A stretch of DNA of 60,339 bases from a virus. The position numbers and the translations under genes are program-made. Below the pieces are notes generated by a model. The model worked only from the letters and a program-made list of their open reading frames with translations. It ran no database searches and was not told the origin of the DNA. Positions 804 through 58,954 of the stretch are shown here, piece by piece. The stretch is taken from IMG/VR virus record IMGVR_UViG_3300042518_000658, positions 1 through 60,339 of that record; one strand, 5' to 3'. Positions within the stretch are counted from its first letter, which is position 1. Every line of letters starts with the position of its first letter.

Positions 804-1304
804 TTAGGCGATGGCCGCCGAGTTGTAGTGGAGGCCAACCAACACGCGGGTCTTGTCATCCTCGGTCTCGGTCAGGGCGAAGCCGAGGCCCGTGCCACCG
901 GCAGCCTCACCACCGGCACCCACCGACACCGTATCGTCCGGCTGGAAGGCACCACCAAGAACGACGGTCGGGCCGGTCACGACGCCATAGAAGACATCGT
1001 CAACCTTCACGCCCGCAGCCGGAAGGTACTCGTCCACCACGGCGACGATGGGGTCACCAGCGGCAGCAAGGCCGATGGCTTCCTCCATGTTGCACTTGAC
1101 CAACTGCCCGGGGAGCAGGGGGTCGGTGTGGCGGTTACGGAGACACACCACCCGGACTTCCCGGTTGGAGTAGACCGTGCCGTCATGGGGATTGGCGTCG
1201 GTGAAGACCTTGACGGAACCGATGACGTTGTTGCCTTCGGTGACCGACTTGACCCCGAGGGTGCTGCCACGGCCAAACGGCGGATCAGAAGTCAGAACGC
1301 TCAT
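804..1304 (-). CDS. Putative capsid decoration protein
   Basis: A 166-residue, Gly/Ala/Val-rich protein without signal peptide or membrane helix, encoded 35 bp downstream of the major capsid gene. Many tailed phages encode a small head-stabilising protein next to the major capsid protein, and the beta-rich composition (repeated short Val-rich segments and Gly turns) fits that role. No diagnostic motif was seen; the function rests on position and composition. Confidence 0.6.
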   Translation of the reverse strand: MSVLTSDPPFGRGSTLGVKSVTEGNNVIGSVKVFTDANPHDGTVYSNREVRVVCLRNRHTDPLLPGQLVKCNMEEAIGLAAAGDPIVAVVDEYLPAAGVKVDDVFYGVVTGPTVVLGGAFQPDDTVSVGAGGEAAGGTGLGFALTETEDDKTRVLVGLHYNSAAIA

Positions 1305-1339
1305 TGCAGTGCTTTCTGTTTAAGGGTTGTGGTTTAGGG

Positions 1340-2458
1340 TCAGGCGATGGCCTGCAACTTGAAGAAGTTACGCGGCGAACGGAACTTAAGGTTGGCCAAC
1401 ACGGAAACGACATACCTATAGGACTGTAGGTCCTCGTTGTAGAACGGCCCCTCGGCTGTCATCAGGCTTCCCTCCATGCAACGGAGTTCCATGTTCTGGA
1501 TGGAGAGCCCATAACCGCAGCCAGCGGGCACTGCATATTCCGTCGAGATTTCAACGCCGTCCTGCTCGAAGACATCGTTGAAGCCGTAAGACTTCAGGCC
1601 ATTGGTCCGGGTTACGATGGCCCGTTCCTTGGAGTCGAGTTTGTTCAGGTACTCGATGAACATCTTCCGGTCGAGGATGACCATGTCGATCTGGCTCTCG
1701 CGTGTGTCATTACGCTTGGCCTGATGGATGCCCTCTCGGGTCGCCACGACGCAGTTGTCAGCCCAAGTAGGGGTGTTGCCACCCTTGAAGTAGGTTGACG
1801 TATAGTTCACTACAATCGGGCTATAGAAGTCATACTCAGGATCGGCCACGCCATTCGGCCATACGCCTTCCAACTGGGAACCGGCAATGGCACCGAGTCC
1901 AGTGTTGATGTTGGCGTAGACATCGGCGGGCCAGCCAAACGGGTCTTCGGCGTTGGCGGTACGCTTGGTGCCGTCATTGATGTTGATGGTCCCATCAATG
2001 GCCATGAAACTCTCGATGCCGTGGAACCGCAGTTCGTTCCCGGCCTTTGCCCCGTCGATCCAGACTTCCTTGGCGAGGTGCTGCTCCATCGACTCCTGAA
2101 GGCGGCTGGCCATCTTGCCAGCGACATTGATAAGGGCCTGCTGGCCACGGTTCTCCAGCATCTCCTTCTTATAGATGCTATCCGTCACCTGATAGCCACG
2201 ATAAGGAAGTTCTGCGTTGACCCACAGGTTCTGCCTAGCGAAAACACGCGGCGTCTCGCCATTGTTTCCGGTCACGGGCTGATTTCTATACCTGACTTCC
2301 CACTGAAGGCCCCGGCCTCCTTGGTTCATAACCACGTTGCCCGACCCTTCAAGGGCCGAGAACACCTTAAACTTGCGGAAGGTGGTTAACTCTTCCTCCT
2401 TAAGGTAGTTGATAATGGTCGTGCCAATGGAACGAGCCCAGTCAGTCGAAGACGGCAT
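1340..2458 (-). CDS. Major capsid protein (HK97-fold candidate)
   Basis: A 372-residue protein directly downstream of the scaffold-like gene and upstream of the decoration candidate. It lacks membrane segments. It has the mixed composition of phage coat proteins: an N-terminal helix, a long region with QGGRGLQW and PYRGYQVTD, and a C-terminal region rich in aromatic beta strands that ends RNFFKLQAIA. No protease or long propeptide is visible upstream, so assembly probably relies on the separate scaffold. Assignment rests on gene order, length and general resemblance to coat proteins annotated in podovirus-like genomes. Confidence 0.75.
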   Translation of the reverse strand: MPSSTDWARSIGTTIINYLKEEELTTFRKFKVFSALEGSGNVVMNQGGRGLQWEVRYRNQPVTGNNGETPRVFARQNLWVNAELPYRGYQVTDSIYKKEMLENRGQQALINVAGKMASRLQESMEQHLAKEVWIDGAKAGNELRFHGIESFMAIDGTININDGTKRTANAEDPFGWPADVYANINTGLGAIAGSQLEGVWPNGVADPEYDFYSPIVVNYTSTYFKGGNTPTWADNCVVATREGIHQAKRNDTRESQIDMVILDRKMFIEYLNKLDSKERAIVTRTNGLKSYGFNDVFEQDGVEISTEYAVPAGCGYGLSIQNMELRCMEGSLMTAEGPFYNEDLQSYRYVVSVLANLKFRSPRNFFKLQAIA

Positions 2459-2471
2459 GATGTCTATCCTT

Positions 2472-3593
2472 TCAGATTAAGCCTCGGGAACCTGCGTCTT
2501 CCCTTAGCATTTGTTCAAAGGTCATCTTGGGCTTGCTGGCCCGGTTATCGGTCGATGCTGACCCGGCTGATCGGCTGGGATTTCTCGCAGCCTCTCGGCG
2601 TAGGTACTCCATGTTTTGCTTGGCCAAATCCTGCTGCGGCGGTTGCGGTTGTGGGGCAGGCCGGGCCGGTTGTGGGGCGGCGACCTGCTGATCCATGAAC
2701 TGCCTAGCCGATTGCTGAATCTGGTTGGTGTAAGCAGATTGCTGGTCATCAAAGGCCTTCGCCAGCATTTCCCTTTCGGTCATTGCTATGGCGTAGTCCC
2801 ATCGGGCTTGCGGCCCGCTGATGCCTCGCTCTCTGGCTTCTTCGATGTACTTATGTACCAACAACCCCTCGGGTGTGACATTTCCTGTCTGCTTGTCAAA
2901 AAGCCAGTCCCGGTTCTGCTCCTCGATGCTGCTGACAAACTGCTCGTTTTCCTGCTTCTGGAACCGTTCTTGGATAATCTGCTCGGCCTGCTTTGCGGCT
3001 AGGTCCTGTACCATCGGTCCAAGGGCTTGCTCTGGGTTTTCCAGAAACTTCTTGGCGAAGTCAGCCTTGTACTGCTGGTATTCGTAGAGTTCTTCCCGGG
3101 CCGTAATTGGGGCATTGGGGTCAATGACCTCCCGCCCGTCCTCGTCCTTAATCAAATACCGCTTGGACGAGTCGCGGACCTGAGGGGGATTCCACCAAGC
3201 CTTGGCCTGCGGCTGGGCCTGCTGGAGTTGCTGGGCCTGCTGCACCTGCGGGCTGGACTGGGACTGCCGCCATGCCTCGAACTCACGGCGGTTCGACAGG
3301 TACTCCTGAGCGTAGGGGAGGACCTGCTGGTACTGGGCAAGTGCCTTGGAGGCGGCCTTTTCCCGCTCCATGGCGTTGTACAACCGGGACGCGATTGCCC
3401 GGTCATCCTGCCCCTGAAAGTCAGGCAGCCGCTTAAAAGCATCCCACGGCGTCTGCAACTGACTGGGCGAGGAGGGCTGCTGACTATCACCACCTCCGAG
3501 CGGAGGAGCAGAAGATTCCGCTGATGTTACCGGGGATTCCTGCGGCTCCGGGCCAGCGTCACCAATCGAAGACTCGACAATATCGTCGCTCAT
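2472..3593 (-). CDS. Putative head scaffolding protein
   Basis: A 373-residue, highly charged and Gln-rich protein. The N-terminus (to about 45) is disordered, Ser/Pro/Gly-rich. Long helical, Gln/Glu-rich segments follow at about 70-135 and 160-310. The tail (about 310-373) is Pro/Gln-rich, then basic. No membrane helix or enzyme motif is seen. Immediate position upstream of the major capsid gene (13-bp gap) and the helical, low-complexity composition are typical of scaffolding proteins. A stable hairpin lies just upstream of its start. Confidence 0.7.
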   Translation of the reverse strand: MSDDIVESSIGDAGPEPQESPVTSAESSAPPLGGGDSQQPSSPSQLQTPWDAFKRLPDFQGQDDRAIASRLYNAMEREKAASKALAQYQQVLPYAQEYLSNRREFEAWRQSQSSPQVQQAQQLQQAQPQAKAWWNPPQVRDSSKRYLIKDEDGREVIDPNAPITAREELYEYQQYKADFAKKFLENPEQALGPMVQDLAAKQAEQIIQERFQKQENEQFVSSIEEQNRDWLFDKQTGNVTPEGLLVHKYIEEARERGISGPQARWDYAIAMTEREMLAKAFDDQQSAYTNQIQQSARQFMDQQVAAPQPARPAPQPQPPQQDLAKQNMEYLRREAARNPSRSAGSASTDNRASKPKMTFEQMLREDAGSRGLI

Positions 3594-47509: not shown

Positions 47510-47713
47510 CTAGTTCTTCTCTTCCGATTCCGGCACGCCAGCAGCCGTCCGCTGCCTTGCCCACTCAGCACGGTCTTCGCCCTGCCACACAATCGAAGCA
47601 CCGGCCCCGACATACAAGACCTGCTCGGGCGTGAGTTCAACAGCGAACGGGTCGCCCGCTGGGGTACGCAGCACGAAGTAGGTGGTCCGCTCTGGGTATG
47701 CGATCTCCGTCAT
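47510..47713 (-). CDS. Small structural protein
   Basis: A 67-residue protein (YPERTTYFVLRTPAGDPFAV, then GAGASIVWQGEDRAEW). Coupled to the upstream fibre gene by a TGATG overlap. Unknown family; the location between fibre and adaptor suggests a small tail component. Confidence 0.5.
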   Translation of the reverse strand: MTEIAYPERTTYFVLRTPAGDPFAVELTPEQVLYVGAGASIVWQGEDRAEWARQRTAAGVPESEEKN

Positions 47714-49269
47714 CAGACTGTCCCTCCGTCAGTGATCGTCCAGCCAAAGGCAATCAGGGACTGCTTGGCAGTTGTGCCTGCACCGCTGGACTTGGAATTG
47801 CCAAACGAAATGGCGTATGGCGTCTTGAATCGCACCGGAGCCAGCCGCCGGTTATTCCAATCCGTCAGCGTGTCGTTGTAGGCGTCCGTTGGCAGGCTAA
47901 AGTTTCCACCGAGGCTTGTGGGCGTGACGGCATTCGGCCCAATTGTCCAGCCAGTGAGCCTCTGATTGAACTTTCCGCATCCGGCGTAGATGCCCTCGAA
48001 GTGGGTGGTCGTCGGCCCGATCTCAATGTCGGATGACGTAAGTTCCGGGCATCCACTGAAGCAGCCGTTGATGCTGAGCAGACGGGATGTGTCTAGGCCA
48101 GAAAAGGTCTTGAGGGAGCGGCAGTTTCTGAAGGCTTGGATCATCTGCACGGGGCTTCCGCACTCACTAAAATCTGCGTACTCCAGTGCGATGCAGTTCT
48201 CGAAGGCAAGACCCCAATCCTCCGAAGAAGGCAGGTTCAGTCGGGTTAAGCCATTTTCATTGCTCAAGACCGCAGACAGAGACACGCACTCCCTAAACAA
48301 CGAACTGACTTCCGTAGCAGCGGGGGCATCTATGTAGGGGCATTGATCGAGCGACCGGCAACCTATGAACATCGCCGTCATGTCGATGGCCGAGGGGAAC
48401 GAGTAGGAAGTTTCCCCCGACAGCGCGAGGCAGGTTTCAAACATAAACCGGACGGACTCAGCGGCGGGCAGGTTCAGAGCAGGCCAGACCCGCATGGCCG
48501 AGCAGTTGCTAAACATACGATCCGCATTTACAGCGACAGGGGCACTTATTACCTGCCGCACGGTCATGGAGGTGCAGGATTCAAACATCCCGAACACGCT
48601 CGTCGCATTCGACAGGTCAAACGCCACTGGCTGATTGAAGGACGAGCAGCCGCTGAAAATACCTGACACGCTGGTGACGGCAGAGGTGTTAAAGAACAGC
48701 GGTTGATTGAATGAGCGGCAGTTCCTGAACATCCCGTCCATATTGGTGACGGTTAGGGGCGGTGCCGGAACGTGCATATTCATAAAAGAGGAACCGGAGA
48801 ACGCTTCGGCCAGCGAAGTCAGTCCGGTGTCGCCCCACGACAAGCAGCCGACCAGCATGGGACCGGCTGTGGATATGCGCGATACCGTGCCCCGAATGTG
48901 GACAACGTACAGCCCATCGGCGGCGTAAGTGTGCGTGGGCGAGTCATCGGTCACCGTCTCCTGCGGTGAGCCGTCACCCCAATCCACGACAGCATTCAGA
49001 GCCGCAGTTCCATTGCGGAGCGGCAGGGTGACGGTGGTGTCCCCAGTGCCGTCGTAGGTCGTGTCAAAGGCAAAGGCCAATGCAGTTGGGTCGAACTGCA
49101 CAATACGGCCATCGGGCAGTGATCGCAGGCCGGTCAGGTCAAGGTGCAGCAGGGAGTCGCTGCCCGTGCGGAGGGCGTTGTTCGGATCGGCACTGGGCGT
49201 GCTGGGGCCTTCAGGCCCGATCAGGCTGTGCCAATCTGCACCGTCGAATATCTGGACGGACTTAGCCAT
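47713..49269 (-). CDS. Fibre protein with PKD-like domain and BspA/DUF285 repeats
   Basis: 518 residues. After a short GxY-type lead (GPEGPSTPSADP), a PKD-like beta domain carries VVDWGDGSPQETVTDDS near 93-110. About ten DUF285/BspA-type leucine-rich repeats follow (MFRNCRSFNQPL, IFSGCSSFNQPV, MFESCTSM and similar). Such repeats are surface adhesion modules in bacteria and some phage fibres. It is the best receptor-binding candidate together with the other fibres. Confidence 0.75.
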   Translation of the reverse strand: MAKSVQIFDGADWHSLIGPEGPSTPSADPNNALRTGSDSLLHLDLTGLRSLPDGRIVQFDPTALAFAFDTTYDGTGDTTVTLPLRNGTAALNAVVDWGDGSPQETVTDDSPTHTYAADGLYVVHIRGTVSRISTAGPMLVGCLSWGDTGLTSLAEAFSGSSFMNMHVPAPPLTVTNMDGMFRNCRSFNQPLFFNTSAVTSVSGIFSGCSSFNQPVAFDLSNATSVFGMFESCTSMTVRQVISAPVAVNADRMFSNCSAMRVWPALNLPAAESVRFMFETCLALSGETSYSFPSAIDMTAMFIGCRSLDQCPYIDAPAATEVSSLFRECVSLSAVLSNENGLTRLNLPSSEDWGLAFENCIALEYADFSECGSPVQMIQAFRNCRSLKTFSGLDTSRLLSINGCFSGCPELTSSDIEIGPTTTHFEGIYAGCGKFNQRLTGWTIGPNAVTPTSLGGNFSLPTDAYNDTLTDWNNRRLAPVRFKTPYAISFGNSKSSGAGTTAKQSLIAFGWTITDGGTV

Positions 49270-56401: not shown

Positions 56402-58954
56402 CTATGCCACCCATGTCTCGGTGTATGAGTTTGGGGCTAAGTAAACAACGCCGCCCGTGCCCTTTGCTTTGTCCCGCTTCTCTTTCCATGACCACCACCA
56501 AGGCTGCTCGACCTGCTGCTCGGGCTTGTGGTAGGCGGGTTCGTAGGAACACAGGTAACGGACGCAGTCCACCAGATGGAACTCGCCACGCTTGTTTGGC
56601 TCGTCCGTCACCACCGATGTCCCGGCGACGTAGGCCACCTTCTTCTTGTACCTCTTCATTTCCCTTTCGAGATTAGGCATGGTTCCACGGAGATACCTTA
56701 GCCTTGCAGTTCCACATGCCCGTATATGAAGCATATTGCGGACTGCCTGAAGACCGGCCAGAACATCGTCTGACCCCGGGATGAAACTGGACCCGGTGAC
56801 TCGGGACCTCACGTTCAGGGCCGACAACTGCTCGGTGTACTGGTCCTGCGGGCTGCGGCCTGAACCAATGTCGGTCAGGCGGGCACCGTGGGCGTCGATC
56901 AAGAAGGCGTGAAACTGCTTGCCCTGAACCTTCCGCAGGAACTCTTGGCCAAAGATGATGGCGTTGCAGTTGCGGATATAGAGTTCGTCGTAGAGCAGGA
57001 TGAACTTCTCGTCCGGGGGGACAGCCGCGAACAGGACGGCGGTGATGGCGTGCCCGGGGTCGATGACCGCATACCGGCACCAGTCATCAGGGACTTGCCC
57101 GCCCGGAAAAATACTTGAATCAAACCCGTGGATCGACGGACTCCAGTTGGGGTAAACCAAGATGGAGTCGGTGATGAACTCACCCTCGGACCTCTGCCTG
57201 AGAATGTCATCCCCGACAGCCGACCACCGCTCGATCATTTTCCGCTTTTCGTCTTGGTCGATATGGGGATTGTCCAGAAACCGGAAGACGAACCGCCGGA
57301 TGTCCTTGGTGTTGCCCTGCTCCTCGGCCTTTTCGGCCCGCTCATTCAGGCCTATGAGGGCTTCATTCTTCGAGTGCGGCATAGCAGACCAGTTAAACAG
57401 GCCCTTCCTGTCGGCTAGTCTTGCCTGCATCTCTGGGACCCATGCCTCGTTGTTTAGGTCCTCGTCTATATGAACCCTATCTGCTTGGAAGCCTTGGGGT
57501 GGGTCTCCCTCTGAGGAGAAGCAGTAGATGGTCCAGCCGTTGACCAACTCGCAGGAGTTCAGGTATCCGGCTGACTTCAAGACCCACGAATAACTTTTAA
57601 TCATCCGGGGCGGGATCAGGGGCGGTGCTGGCTTTGCCTCGGCAAGCCTGCTGGCGTCTGCAACCGGGTCAAAGGCACGGAACTGGCCGGTCTGCTCGTC
57701 CCGAATGATCTTGAAGGCCCCGGCCTTAAACAGATATGGCACAACAACTAGGCCAATGTGCTTCCAGTTCTGGCCGATGATGACGAGGTTGCCGCCCTCC
57801 TTGCGGTACTTGCCCTCGACGGGATGGGTGCCAGTGGCGGCCCACGCATCCTCAATGAACGTGGCTAAAGACTTGCCGCTGTTGTGATGAAGGACGCCGC
57901 CCGCAAAGTAGCACTCGGTGTCTTCGACTGTGATGTCCCAGATTTTTCCTTGCCCGATTAGGCGAACGGAGGTAATACAAACAGATTCCCTCCAATCAAG
58001 AGATGCCGATGCCAACGAAAAGAAATCCGGTTCTTTGGGACTTTGATCTTCTTCGCCGTCTTTATGAAGACGAACTCCTGACCGTTGAGGAAATCGGCGT
58101 TCGTCTTGGCGTGTCAGGAAAGGTTGCCAACAAAGCCTGCCGCCGTGCTGGTGTTCGGATGCGGCGACGAGGGCCGCTATCTGGGAAAGGCCATCCCTGC
58201 TGGAAAGGCGGCGTGACAACTGACAAGTCTGGCTACGTCCTTCGGTACAAGCCGAATCACCCCTTCTGCAATGCAGGCGGCTACATCCGAGAGCATCGAC
58301 TTGTGATGGAGCAAAAACTGGGAAGGACCCTTCTGCCGCTGGAGGTTGTCCACCACAGGGATGATGACCCGTCGAACAACCATCCAGACAACCTTGAACT
58401 GTTTGCGTCAAACCGCGAGCATCTGGCCGCAACCCTGAAAGGCAAGTGCCCTCAGTGGTCGGAAGAGGGAAAAGCAAGGATTGCCGTTGCAGTGCGTCGG
58501 CCACGGAAACCCACCCTTCGGACGAAAGCACTCGATGAGCAAGAGTCGTCCGAATCGTCTGGCCGTTCGACAGCGTGACTTCCCAAAGATCGCCATAGCC
58601 CTTGACGAAAGGACGGCAGGCTGACTTAACCACCACGCCGCTGCCGTCCCAAGACAAGACATGAAAGTCTGAGTCTATTTCATCAACCCGGATGGTGCGG
58701 TCGAGAACGGGGTCGTAGAGTTCTTGGCTGCCGTCAAGACACCGATTGCCCCCGATTACCAGCGTTTCACTGGACAGGCACTGATGAAACTCCAACTGCC
58801 TCGGGGTTGGCTTGTATAGCCTCAAGGCTTCGATCCGCCTCTCGTTCAACTCGCTCTGCAAGGTCCGCAATTCGTCCCGCTGGAACGAGGATATGCTCTG
58901 GACCGTTGGCAGCGGGGGCATGGGTGATTGCGGCTGCTTCTTCTTGCGGGGCAT
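56402..58954 (-). CDS. terL: Terminase large subunit, interrupted by an intein
   Basis: An 850-residue precursor. Exteins total about 563 residues. The first 71 end in LVIGGNR and the part after the intein starts SGKSLATFIEDAWAA, so splicing restores the Walker A motif GGNRSGKS. Downstream, the ATPase and nuclease domains follow, with VHIDEDLNNEAWVPE near the Walker B region and WCRYAVIDPGHAITAVLF and FLIDAHGAR in the nuclease part. The motor packages DNA into the prohead. Its first 188 bp overlap the end of the upstream gene in another frame. Confidence 0.9.
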   Translation of the reverse strand: MPRKKKQPQSPMPPLPTVQSISSFQRDELRTLQSELNERRIEALRLYKPTPRQLEFHQCLSSETLVIGGNRCLDGSQELYDPVLDRTIRVDEIDSDFHVLSWDGSGVVVKSACRPFVKGYGDLWEVTLSNGQTIRTTLAHRVLSSEGWVSVADALQRQSLLFPLPTTEGTCLSGLRPDARGLTQTVQGCLDGCSTGHHPCGGQPPAAEGSFPVFAPSQVDALGCSRLHCRRGDSACTEGRSQTCQLSRRLSSRDGLSQIAALVAASEHQHGGRLCWQPFLTRQDERRFPQRSGVRLHKDGEEDQSPKEPDFFSLASASLDWRESVCITSVRLIGQGKIWDITVEDTECYFAGGVLHHNSGKSLATFIEDAWAATGTHPVEGKYRKEGGNLVIIGQNWKHIGLVVVPYLFKAGAFKIIRDEQTGQFRAFDPVADASRLAEAKPAPPLIPPRMIKSYSWVLKSAGYLNSCELVNGWTIYCFSSEGDPPQGFQADRVHIDEDLNNEAWVPEMQARLADRKGLFNWSAMPHSKNEALIGLNERAEKAEEQGNTKDIRRFVFRFLDNPHIDQDEKRKMIERWSAVGDDILRQRSEGEFITDSILVYPNWSPSIHGFDSSIFPGGQVPDDWCRYAVIDPGHAITAVLFAAVPPDEKFILLYDELYIRNCNAIIFGQEFLRKVQGKQFHAFLIDAHGARLTDIGSGRSPQDQYTEQLSALNVRSRVTGSSFIPGSDDVLAGLQAVRNMLHIRACGTARLRYLRGTMPNLEREMKRYKKKVAYVAGTSVVTDEPNKRGEFHLVDCVRYLCSYEPAYHKPEQQVEQPWWWSWKEKRDKAKGTGGVVYLAPNSYTETWVA
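57881..58741 (-). other. Intein in TerL (residues 72-358) with antisense nuclease insert
   Basis: 287 residues. Cys1 starts block A (CLDGSQELYDPVL), block B is LSNGQTIRTTLAHRVL with the TxxH pattern, and blocks F/G are IWDITVEDTECYFAGGVLHHN followed by Ser+1. The splicing parts total about 140 residues, the size of a mini-intein. Where an in-frame endonuclease domain normally sits, the sense translation is Cys/Arg/Ser/Gly/Pro-rich and meaningless, and the opposite strand encodes an HNH nuclease. Confidence 0.9.
58003..58578 (+). CDS. HNH homing endonuclease encoded antisense inside the TerL intein
   Basis: A 191-residue protein; a start at the ATG at 58009 is equally likely, with AAGAG six bases upstream. 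An N-terminal HTH (LTVEEIGVRLGVSGKVANKA) and a WKGG linker lead to an HNH_3-type domain: YIREHRLVMEQKLGRTLLP, VVHHRDDDPSNNHPDNLELF and REHLA, with His117/118 and Asn126 as likely catalytic residues. Such proteins cut intron- or intein-less alleles to spread their host element. The whole gene lies within the intein on the other strand, with its 3' end across block B. Confidence 0.9.
   Translation: MPMPTKRNPVLWDFDLLRRLYEDELLTVEEIGVRLGVSGKVANKACRRAGVRMRRRGPLSGKGHPCWKGGVTTDKSGYVLRYKPNHPFCNAGGYIREHRLVMEQKLGRTLLPLEVVHHRDDDPSNNHPDNLELFASNREHLAATLKGKCPQWSEEGKARIAVAVRRPRKPTLRTKALDEQESSESSGRSTA

Follow-up and report, generated by a model that had tools for sequence, protein, structure and literature searches.

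Mobile inteins of the canonical kind combine a protein-splicing Hint domain with a LAGLIDADG or HNH endonuclease domain, which occupies a slot between splicing blocks B and F in the same reading frame. They are inserted at the active sites of conserved proteins, and their target genes occur as empty, full and mini alleles. In fractured genes, reportedly described by Dassa et al. in 2009, a free-standing endonuclease gene lies between the halves of a split intein, which are encoded by two ORFs and spliced in trans. In-frame nucleases and free nucleases beside split genes are the known routes to intein mobility. The phage homing endonuclease I-HmuI, which has an HNH core, is encoded in an intron. 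In two other systems the nuclease gene is placed in a different orientation or frame from its host. The gene of I-DsqI is antisense to its self-splicing host element, a nuclear group I intron of Didymium squamulosum L2066 (PMC9548176), and the ShiLan domain, found as ‘hidden HNH’ insertions in actinophage methylases, is encoded in another frame, in the same direction as far as stated, with the host frame open and no splicing domain detected (PMC11855218).

The locus described here lies in IMG/VR virus record IMGVR_UViG_3300042518_000658, of which the whole analysed stretch of 60,339 nucleotides is called the window. It resembles canonical mobile inteins in its Hint domain, endonuclease slot, insertion at the active site of a conserved protein and allele states, but its nuclease is a separate protein on the opposite strand, outside the polypeptide and frame of the intein, and the linker in the slot is nonsense. 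As with I-DsqI, a nuclease gene is antisense to a splicing element; that element is, however, a protein intein, open across the nuclease gene, whereas the rDNA RNA intron needs no reading frame. Like the ShiLan insertions, the HNH gene lies within a phage gene in a different frame and the host frame is kept open, but it is antisense and its surroundings are a recognisable intein. A free endonuclease gene between two intein parts is also the layout of fractured genes, which differ from the single cis ORF and antisense nuclease found here. The HNH core is common to I-HmuI and other HNH_3 phage homing endonucleases; the position of the gene, antisense within an intein, is the difference. Our searches of the open literature gave no account of a nuclease encoded antisense to an intein. 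An earlier mention in subscription papers (Gorbalenya 1998, ‘Non-canonical inteins’, or Dassa 2009) is possible, and the antisense-nuclease mobile intein is apparently a real and undescribed kind. We regard it as highly probable, from comparative sequence evidence, that the element is a mobile intein with one gene for splicing and another for homing, coded by the two strands of a single stretch of DNA.

The large terminase (TerL) of the window (Table 1) has close relatives at 70–87% identity. It had no match at E 1e-5 among 50,697 annotated phage records and none among annotated plasmids, and since no annotated phage was matched, the lineage seems to be without isolated relatives. A preliminary description of this DNA had placed an intein in the Walker A motif of TerL, and its exact boundaries, 57881–58741, were confirmed, with matches to PF14890 and TIGR01445. 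The junctions read GGNR/CLDGSQEL...AGGVLHHN/SGKS, and the insertion site corresponds to 57869–57880 plus 58742–58753. PF14890 (Intein_splicing) aligned with TerL residues 95–358 (E 4e-8) at 33.6 bits, slightly below its cut-off of 35.8, TIGR01445 (intein_Nterm, NCBIfam) scored 24.9 bits on the intein against a cut-off of 24.5, and inteins in the PDB were matched by profile at E 2e-22. C1, H69, D269 and N287 are invariant in an alignment of 45 intein relatives. AlphaFold, run on these 45 aligned inteins, gave two confidently folded Hint halves (pLDDT ~97 for residues 1–90 and 91–98 for residues ~252–287) on either side of a linker with pLDDT ~45 that is predicted to be disordered, and in Foldseek the model groups with solved mini-inteins (TM 0.7–0.8 by target). 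The sequence and fold features of inteins are thus present (C1, the His of block B, a terminal Asn, Cys, Ser or Thr at +1, and the Hint fold), in a single 850-aa ORF and not in the two ORFs that encode the halves of a split intein. Elsewhere in the window (47713–49269, minus strand), downstream of the portal gene region, a 518-aa protein matched DUF285 (E 3e-22) and, weakly, leucine-rich repeats.

Table 1. Features of the terL locus, in positions of the window.
Feature	Position	Strand	Basis or remark
TerL gene, single unbroken ORF including the intein	56402..58954	minus	850 aa; PF03237 Terminase_6N (weak); phrog_17415
N-extein, TerL residues 1–71, ending ...GGNR (first half of Walker A)	58742..58954	minus	
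Intein, TerL residues 72–358, 287 aa, C1...HHN, +1 Ser	57881..58741	minus	
Intein N-terminal splicing domain, residues 1–92 (blocks A and B, His69)	58466..58741	minus	AlphaFold; invariant C1, H69
Intein linker, residues 93–251, opposite most of the HNH gene	57989..58465	minus	pLDDT; pairwise identity
Intein C-terminal splicing domain, residues 252–287 (blocks F and G)	57881..57988	minus	AlphaFold; invariant D269, N287
C-extein start, codons SGKS (second half of Walker A)	57869..57880	minus	44 uninterrupted homologous sites
HNH endonuclease gene, 191 aa, antisense to the intein	58003..58578	plus	PF13392, phrog_20891, AlphaFold
HNH catalytic core, EHRLV...EVVHH...N...NL...N..HL	58291..58425	plus	Invariant columns
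HNH C-terminal tail, two coding functions overlapping	58466..58578	plus	Opposite intein residues 56–92, including block B His69

The plus-strand ORF at 58003–58578 is a full HNH gene inside the intein, as had been proposed. Its product consists of an N-terminal helix-turn-helix-like region, an HNH_3 core and C-terminal helices, and matched PF13392 (HNH_3; E 4e-9, 36.4 bits, cut-off 24.8) and phrog_20891 (E 3e-27). Both the profile score above cut-off and the conserved catalytic residues assign it to HNH_3, the invariant columns being E97–L100 (including H98), H118, N126, N130, N137 and H140. The AlphaFold model has a mean pLDDT of 86.5, and its top fold match, a weak one, is I-HmuI (E 0.19). 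An Rfam scan of the window at gathering score gave no match, so no group I intron core was recognised at the site, and an RNA intron was rejected as an explanation.

A scan of IMG/VR with the window HNH protein returned 205 relatives, and in most of the best 80, which were fetched, an intein spans the HNH gene on the opposite strand. Further scans and records of isolated phages enlarged the set to 169 loci, obtained mainly with the HNH protein, which were classified by profiles of the intein N block and C block. Both splicing blocks lie antisense to the HNH gene and flank it in 147 of the 169, and the intein frame is open in every one of these 147, always in the same antisense phase. What had been treated as a single oddity is instead a widespread class, seen in unrelated phage genes by the dozen; as the loci were gathered through similarity to the HNH protein, these counts are uninformative on the share of all inteins built in this way. 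Two loci (L027 and L068) have one detected splicing block and an open frame, and one contig, present as L034 and L157, has the N block only and stops in the linker frame. On this contig (L034, 2–776) the intein N-half, in a P-loop gene, stops just past block B and is followed by the antisense HNH gene and the contig end; it may be a split-intein form of the nested element, or a broken gene. Some contigs are repeated among the 169 loci, and the statistics refer to 87 distinct ones. In these the intein is 279–366 aa long (median 297), and the +1 residue is Ser in 58, Thr in 25 and Cys in 4, a tally that, like those of C1 and the terminal Asn, is partly by construction since intein ends were located by these letters. 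The profile matches and the alignment of relatives support the intein identity independently of end-finding.

Several of the loci are in isolated phages, and Escherichia phage KW1E_UTAR, with a TerL of 71% identity, has an intein-less homologous site. In Pectobacterium phage Sabo (L081, PQ008974) a 754-aa ‘hypothetical protein’ (1071–3335) is TerL plus intein (Terminase_6N/6C, PF14890), and the antisense HNH gene (2444–3142, 232 aa) is without annotation; Ymer (L082) is of the same kind, and eight Pectobacterium/Dickeya phage records match. For Pseudoalteromonas phage PHS3 (L083, KX912252; 1041–3059) the annotated start of TerL, at MQVLDTNNYVTEDGAVHHN, falls within the intein; the annotation therefore omits the N-extein and the N-terminal part of the intein, and it includes the antisense HNH gene.

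The two genes overlap in a phase in which HNH codon position 1 lies opposite intein position 1 and HNH position 3 opposite intein position 2; the preliminary description, which had HNH wobble bases facing the second base of intein codons in a frame that stays open, was correct on the phase and, the TerL ORF being uninterrupted, on the openness. Antisense stops in this phase arise where NTT, NTC or NCT stands before a codon whose first base is A. Under a null in which synonymous codons were shuffled within each gene, 392 antisense stops were expected in the 87 distinct loci and none was seen; these loci were chosen by both splicing blocks and not by openness, and are therefore free of the selection bias of a second set of 57 distinct nested genes chosen by openness (0 seen vs 240 expected). 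Within the latter, Phe followed by Ile, Met, Thr, Asn or Lys, which makes a stop unavoidable, was seen 0 times vs 26 expected, and Ile preceding an A-starting codon was encoded by ATA in 28 of 28 cases. By comparison, 44 stops were counted in 14 non-nested HNH relatives that lack an intein, where 55 were expected, and the remaining two antisense frames of nested HNH genes mostly contain several stops each. The missing stops, the 147 open frames and the codon avoidance together indicate that selection holds the intein frame open. The opposite view, with the plus-strand ORF as a relic or chance frame and base composition as the reason that the intein frame is open, could draw on the GC content of the window (0.56–0.62), at which chance ORFs are longer. 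It is the most improbable of the readings that we weighed: the stops in the other antisense frames and in free-standing HNH genes and the 0 vs 392 result led us to reject a chance ORF, HNH residues are conserved where the opposite frame has diverged to ~20% identity, and none of 18 occupied sites in one TerL lineage (that of L033) combines a broken HNH gene with a full-length open intein frame.

Conservation identifies the frame that carries meaning between the splicing blocks. The HNH identity exceeded that of the linker encoded by the same DNA in 1409 of 1409 pairs, with means of 0.53 and 0.22 in the 50–60% class, and nucleotide differences between loci cluster at HNH third positions. In close pairs the dN/dS of the HNH frame is well below 1; for L028 and L039, dN is 0.026 and dS 0.528 in the HNH frame, vs 0.136 and 0.040 in the linker frame. 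Purifying selection acts on the HNH frame, whereas the linker of the intein shows no conservation, a difference in constraint for which the preliminary description had proposed a comparison of dN/dS. A disrupted HNH frame with a linker conserved as protein, which it had named as contrary evidence, was not seen; the loss observed is a joint one of HNH gene and linker, with mini-inteins as the result. The linker frame had no domain match in the profile search, and an in-frame endonuclease with the HNH ORF as its shadow was rejected on this ground and on the lower conservation of the linker in all pairs. Conservation and fold models mark the splicing domain and the HNH protein as real proteins and the linker as a by-product.

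Beyond the linker, the overlap can reach conserved sequence on both strands. In a sister clade, of Pectobacterium type, the HNH protein ends in a conserved tail of ~70 residues encoded opposite the greater part of the N-terminal splicing domain; tail and splicing domain are both conserved at roughly 45–70%, so that the overlapping base pairs code two conserved proteins. The tail (GDxRLxQILLAxLxLGxDSPYLLGTxHHLxKAGI...) occurs in L060, L065, L066, L070, L072, L074, L081 and L083.

A degenerate or split intein remnant that does not splice in cis, with an HNH gene that merely landed in terL, is a very unlikely reading. The N-half of L034/L157 and the PF14890 score below cut-off would fit such a remnant, but the Walker A motif that is split in the hosts is essential, the splicing residues are conserved, the intein is one open chain at all 147 two-block loci with the stops expected by chance missing, and mini-inteins without an HNH gene exist. 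Splicing in cis, which we infer, has indirect support in the absence of stops and in the uninterrupted P-loop homologues.

Intein-less alleles, a search for which had been suggested, exist in two TerL lineages. Among close relatives of the window TerL, 44 have an uninterrupted site and only a near-identical contig (L170/L001) is occupied. The L033 lineage, with 80 loci, has 55 empty sites, 18 full elements, in none of which either frame is broken, and 2 mini-inteins lacking the HNH gene; its other loci are truncated by contig ends. The mini-intein L249 (132 aa) is identical at 107 of 123 splicing-block positions to the full element L041 (315 aa). At P-loop sites the whole cassette is thus either there or missing, and with its empty, full and mini alleles the L033 lineage shows what we take to be a homing cycle, distribution being the evidence for homing.

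All hosts are P-loop NTPases with the insertion at the P-loop. Most copies are in terL, of several TerL families, and others in SNF2-type helicases (L031, L165, L088) and a clamp-loader ATPase (L054). The contigs L088 and L089, from Acidobacteria MAGs, have the element within an SNF2-type helicase gene and probably derive from prophages or phages. HNH packaging proteins are known beside terminases, reportedly from Kala and colleagues, and the prevalence of terL hosts would agree with an HNH protein that is a DNA-packaging partner of the terminase, sitting by chance within the intein, and not a homing enzyme. This is extremely unlikely, since the nested HNH also occurs in the helicases and the clamp loader, most close terminases have neither this HNH nor the intein and accordingly package without need of it, and the best fold match of the HNH, although weak, is a homing enzyme. 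A packaging HNH of the HK97 gp74 type was rejected because the copies in helicases and the clamp loader break the association with terminase.

Nested HNH proteins group in what is essentially a single clade (99/98). No more than two of its members are free-standing, L064 (4602–5336) and L133 (324–1028), which may be escapes from the nested form or its sources; the L064 gene adjoins an intein-less terL. Pairwise distances of HNH and intein are correlated at 0.70, and those with the extein at 0.55 (HNH) and 0.51 (intein). Nearest neighbours by HNH and by intein coincide in only 44% of the loci, which indicates some reshuffling or noise.

The preliminary description had also argued that an antisense nuclease would uncouple nuclease from terminase expression. 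In the family, a Shine-Dalgarno motif precedes the HNH start at 68 of 87 loci, vs 32% of control frames, and the distance from this start to the intein C-terminus is rather constant (median 43 codons). The window copy has no clear Shine-Dalgarno motif at its HNH start, and a promoter scan gave no sigma-70-like promoter, a type that may not fit the host of this phage. Uncoupled expression is plausible and would thus be a property read from the family, with the window copy lending it no motif of its own.

The comparative evidence as a whole supports an intact cis intein with a free antisense HNH nuclease in the place of the endonuclease domain. From the minus strand, TerL would be translated with the intein in frame as a precursor; the Hint fold formed by the two end segments would splice out and restore the Walker A motif as GGNR-SGKS, the middle 160 residues being a disordered by-product in which only stops need be absent. 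From the plus strand, HNH would be made from its own start as a free homing endonuclease, which would cut P-loop alleles without the intein, and repair would copy the 861-bp cassette into them. We counted against this two-strand intein the PF14890 score below the curated cut-off, the 44% agreement of neighbours, the stops in L034/L157 and the missing Shine-Dalgarno motif and promoter of the window copy.

A broader proposition, which we hold to be somewhat probable, is that P-loop inteins paired with a nuclease gene on the opposite strand make up a mobile-element class that is old, widespread and so far undescribed, with essentially a single origin, a constant phase and dual coding in at least one clade, the Pectobacterium type. 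These loci are natural antisense overlapping genes in a large and statistically clean sample, 87 distinct loci with a predictable codon rule. They also bear on annotation, as records of isolated phages give TerL as ‘hypothetical’ or in truncated form and often miss the nuclease, and they offer P-loop inteins of terminases, helicases and clamp loaders in culturable phages for the study of splicing, homing and antisense regulation. Encoded on the other strand of the intein DNA, the nuclease would be freed from expression with the host protein and from folding inside the intein. If the proposition is true, splicing and homing constrain each other in the Pectobacterium-type clade, because the same base pairs code the N-terminal splicing domain and a conserved C-terminal domain of the nuclease; transcripts of the nuclease gene, being antisense, can also counteract host gene expression.
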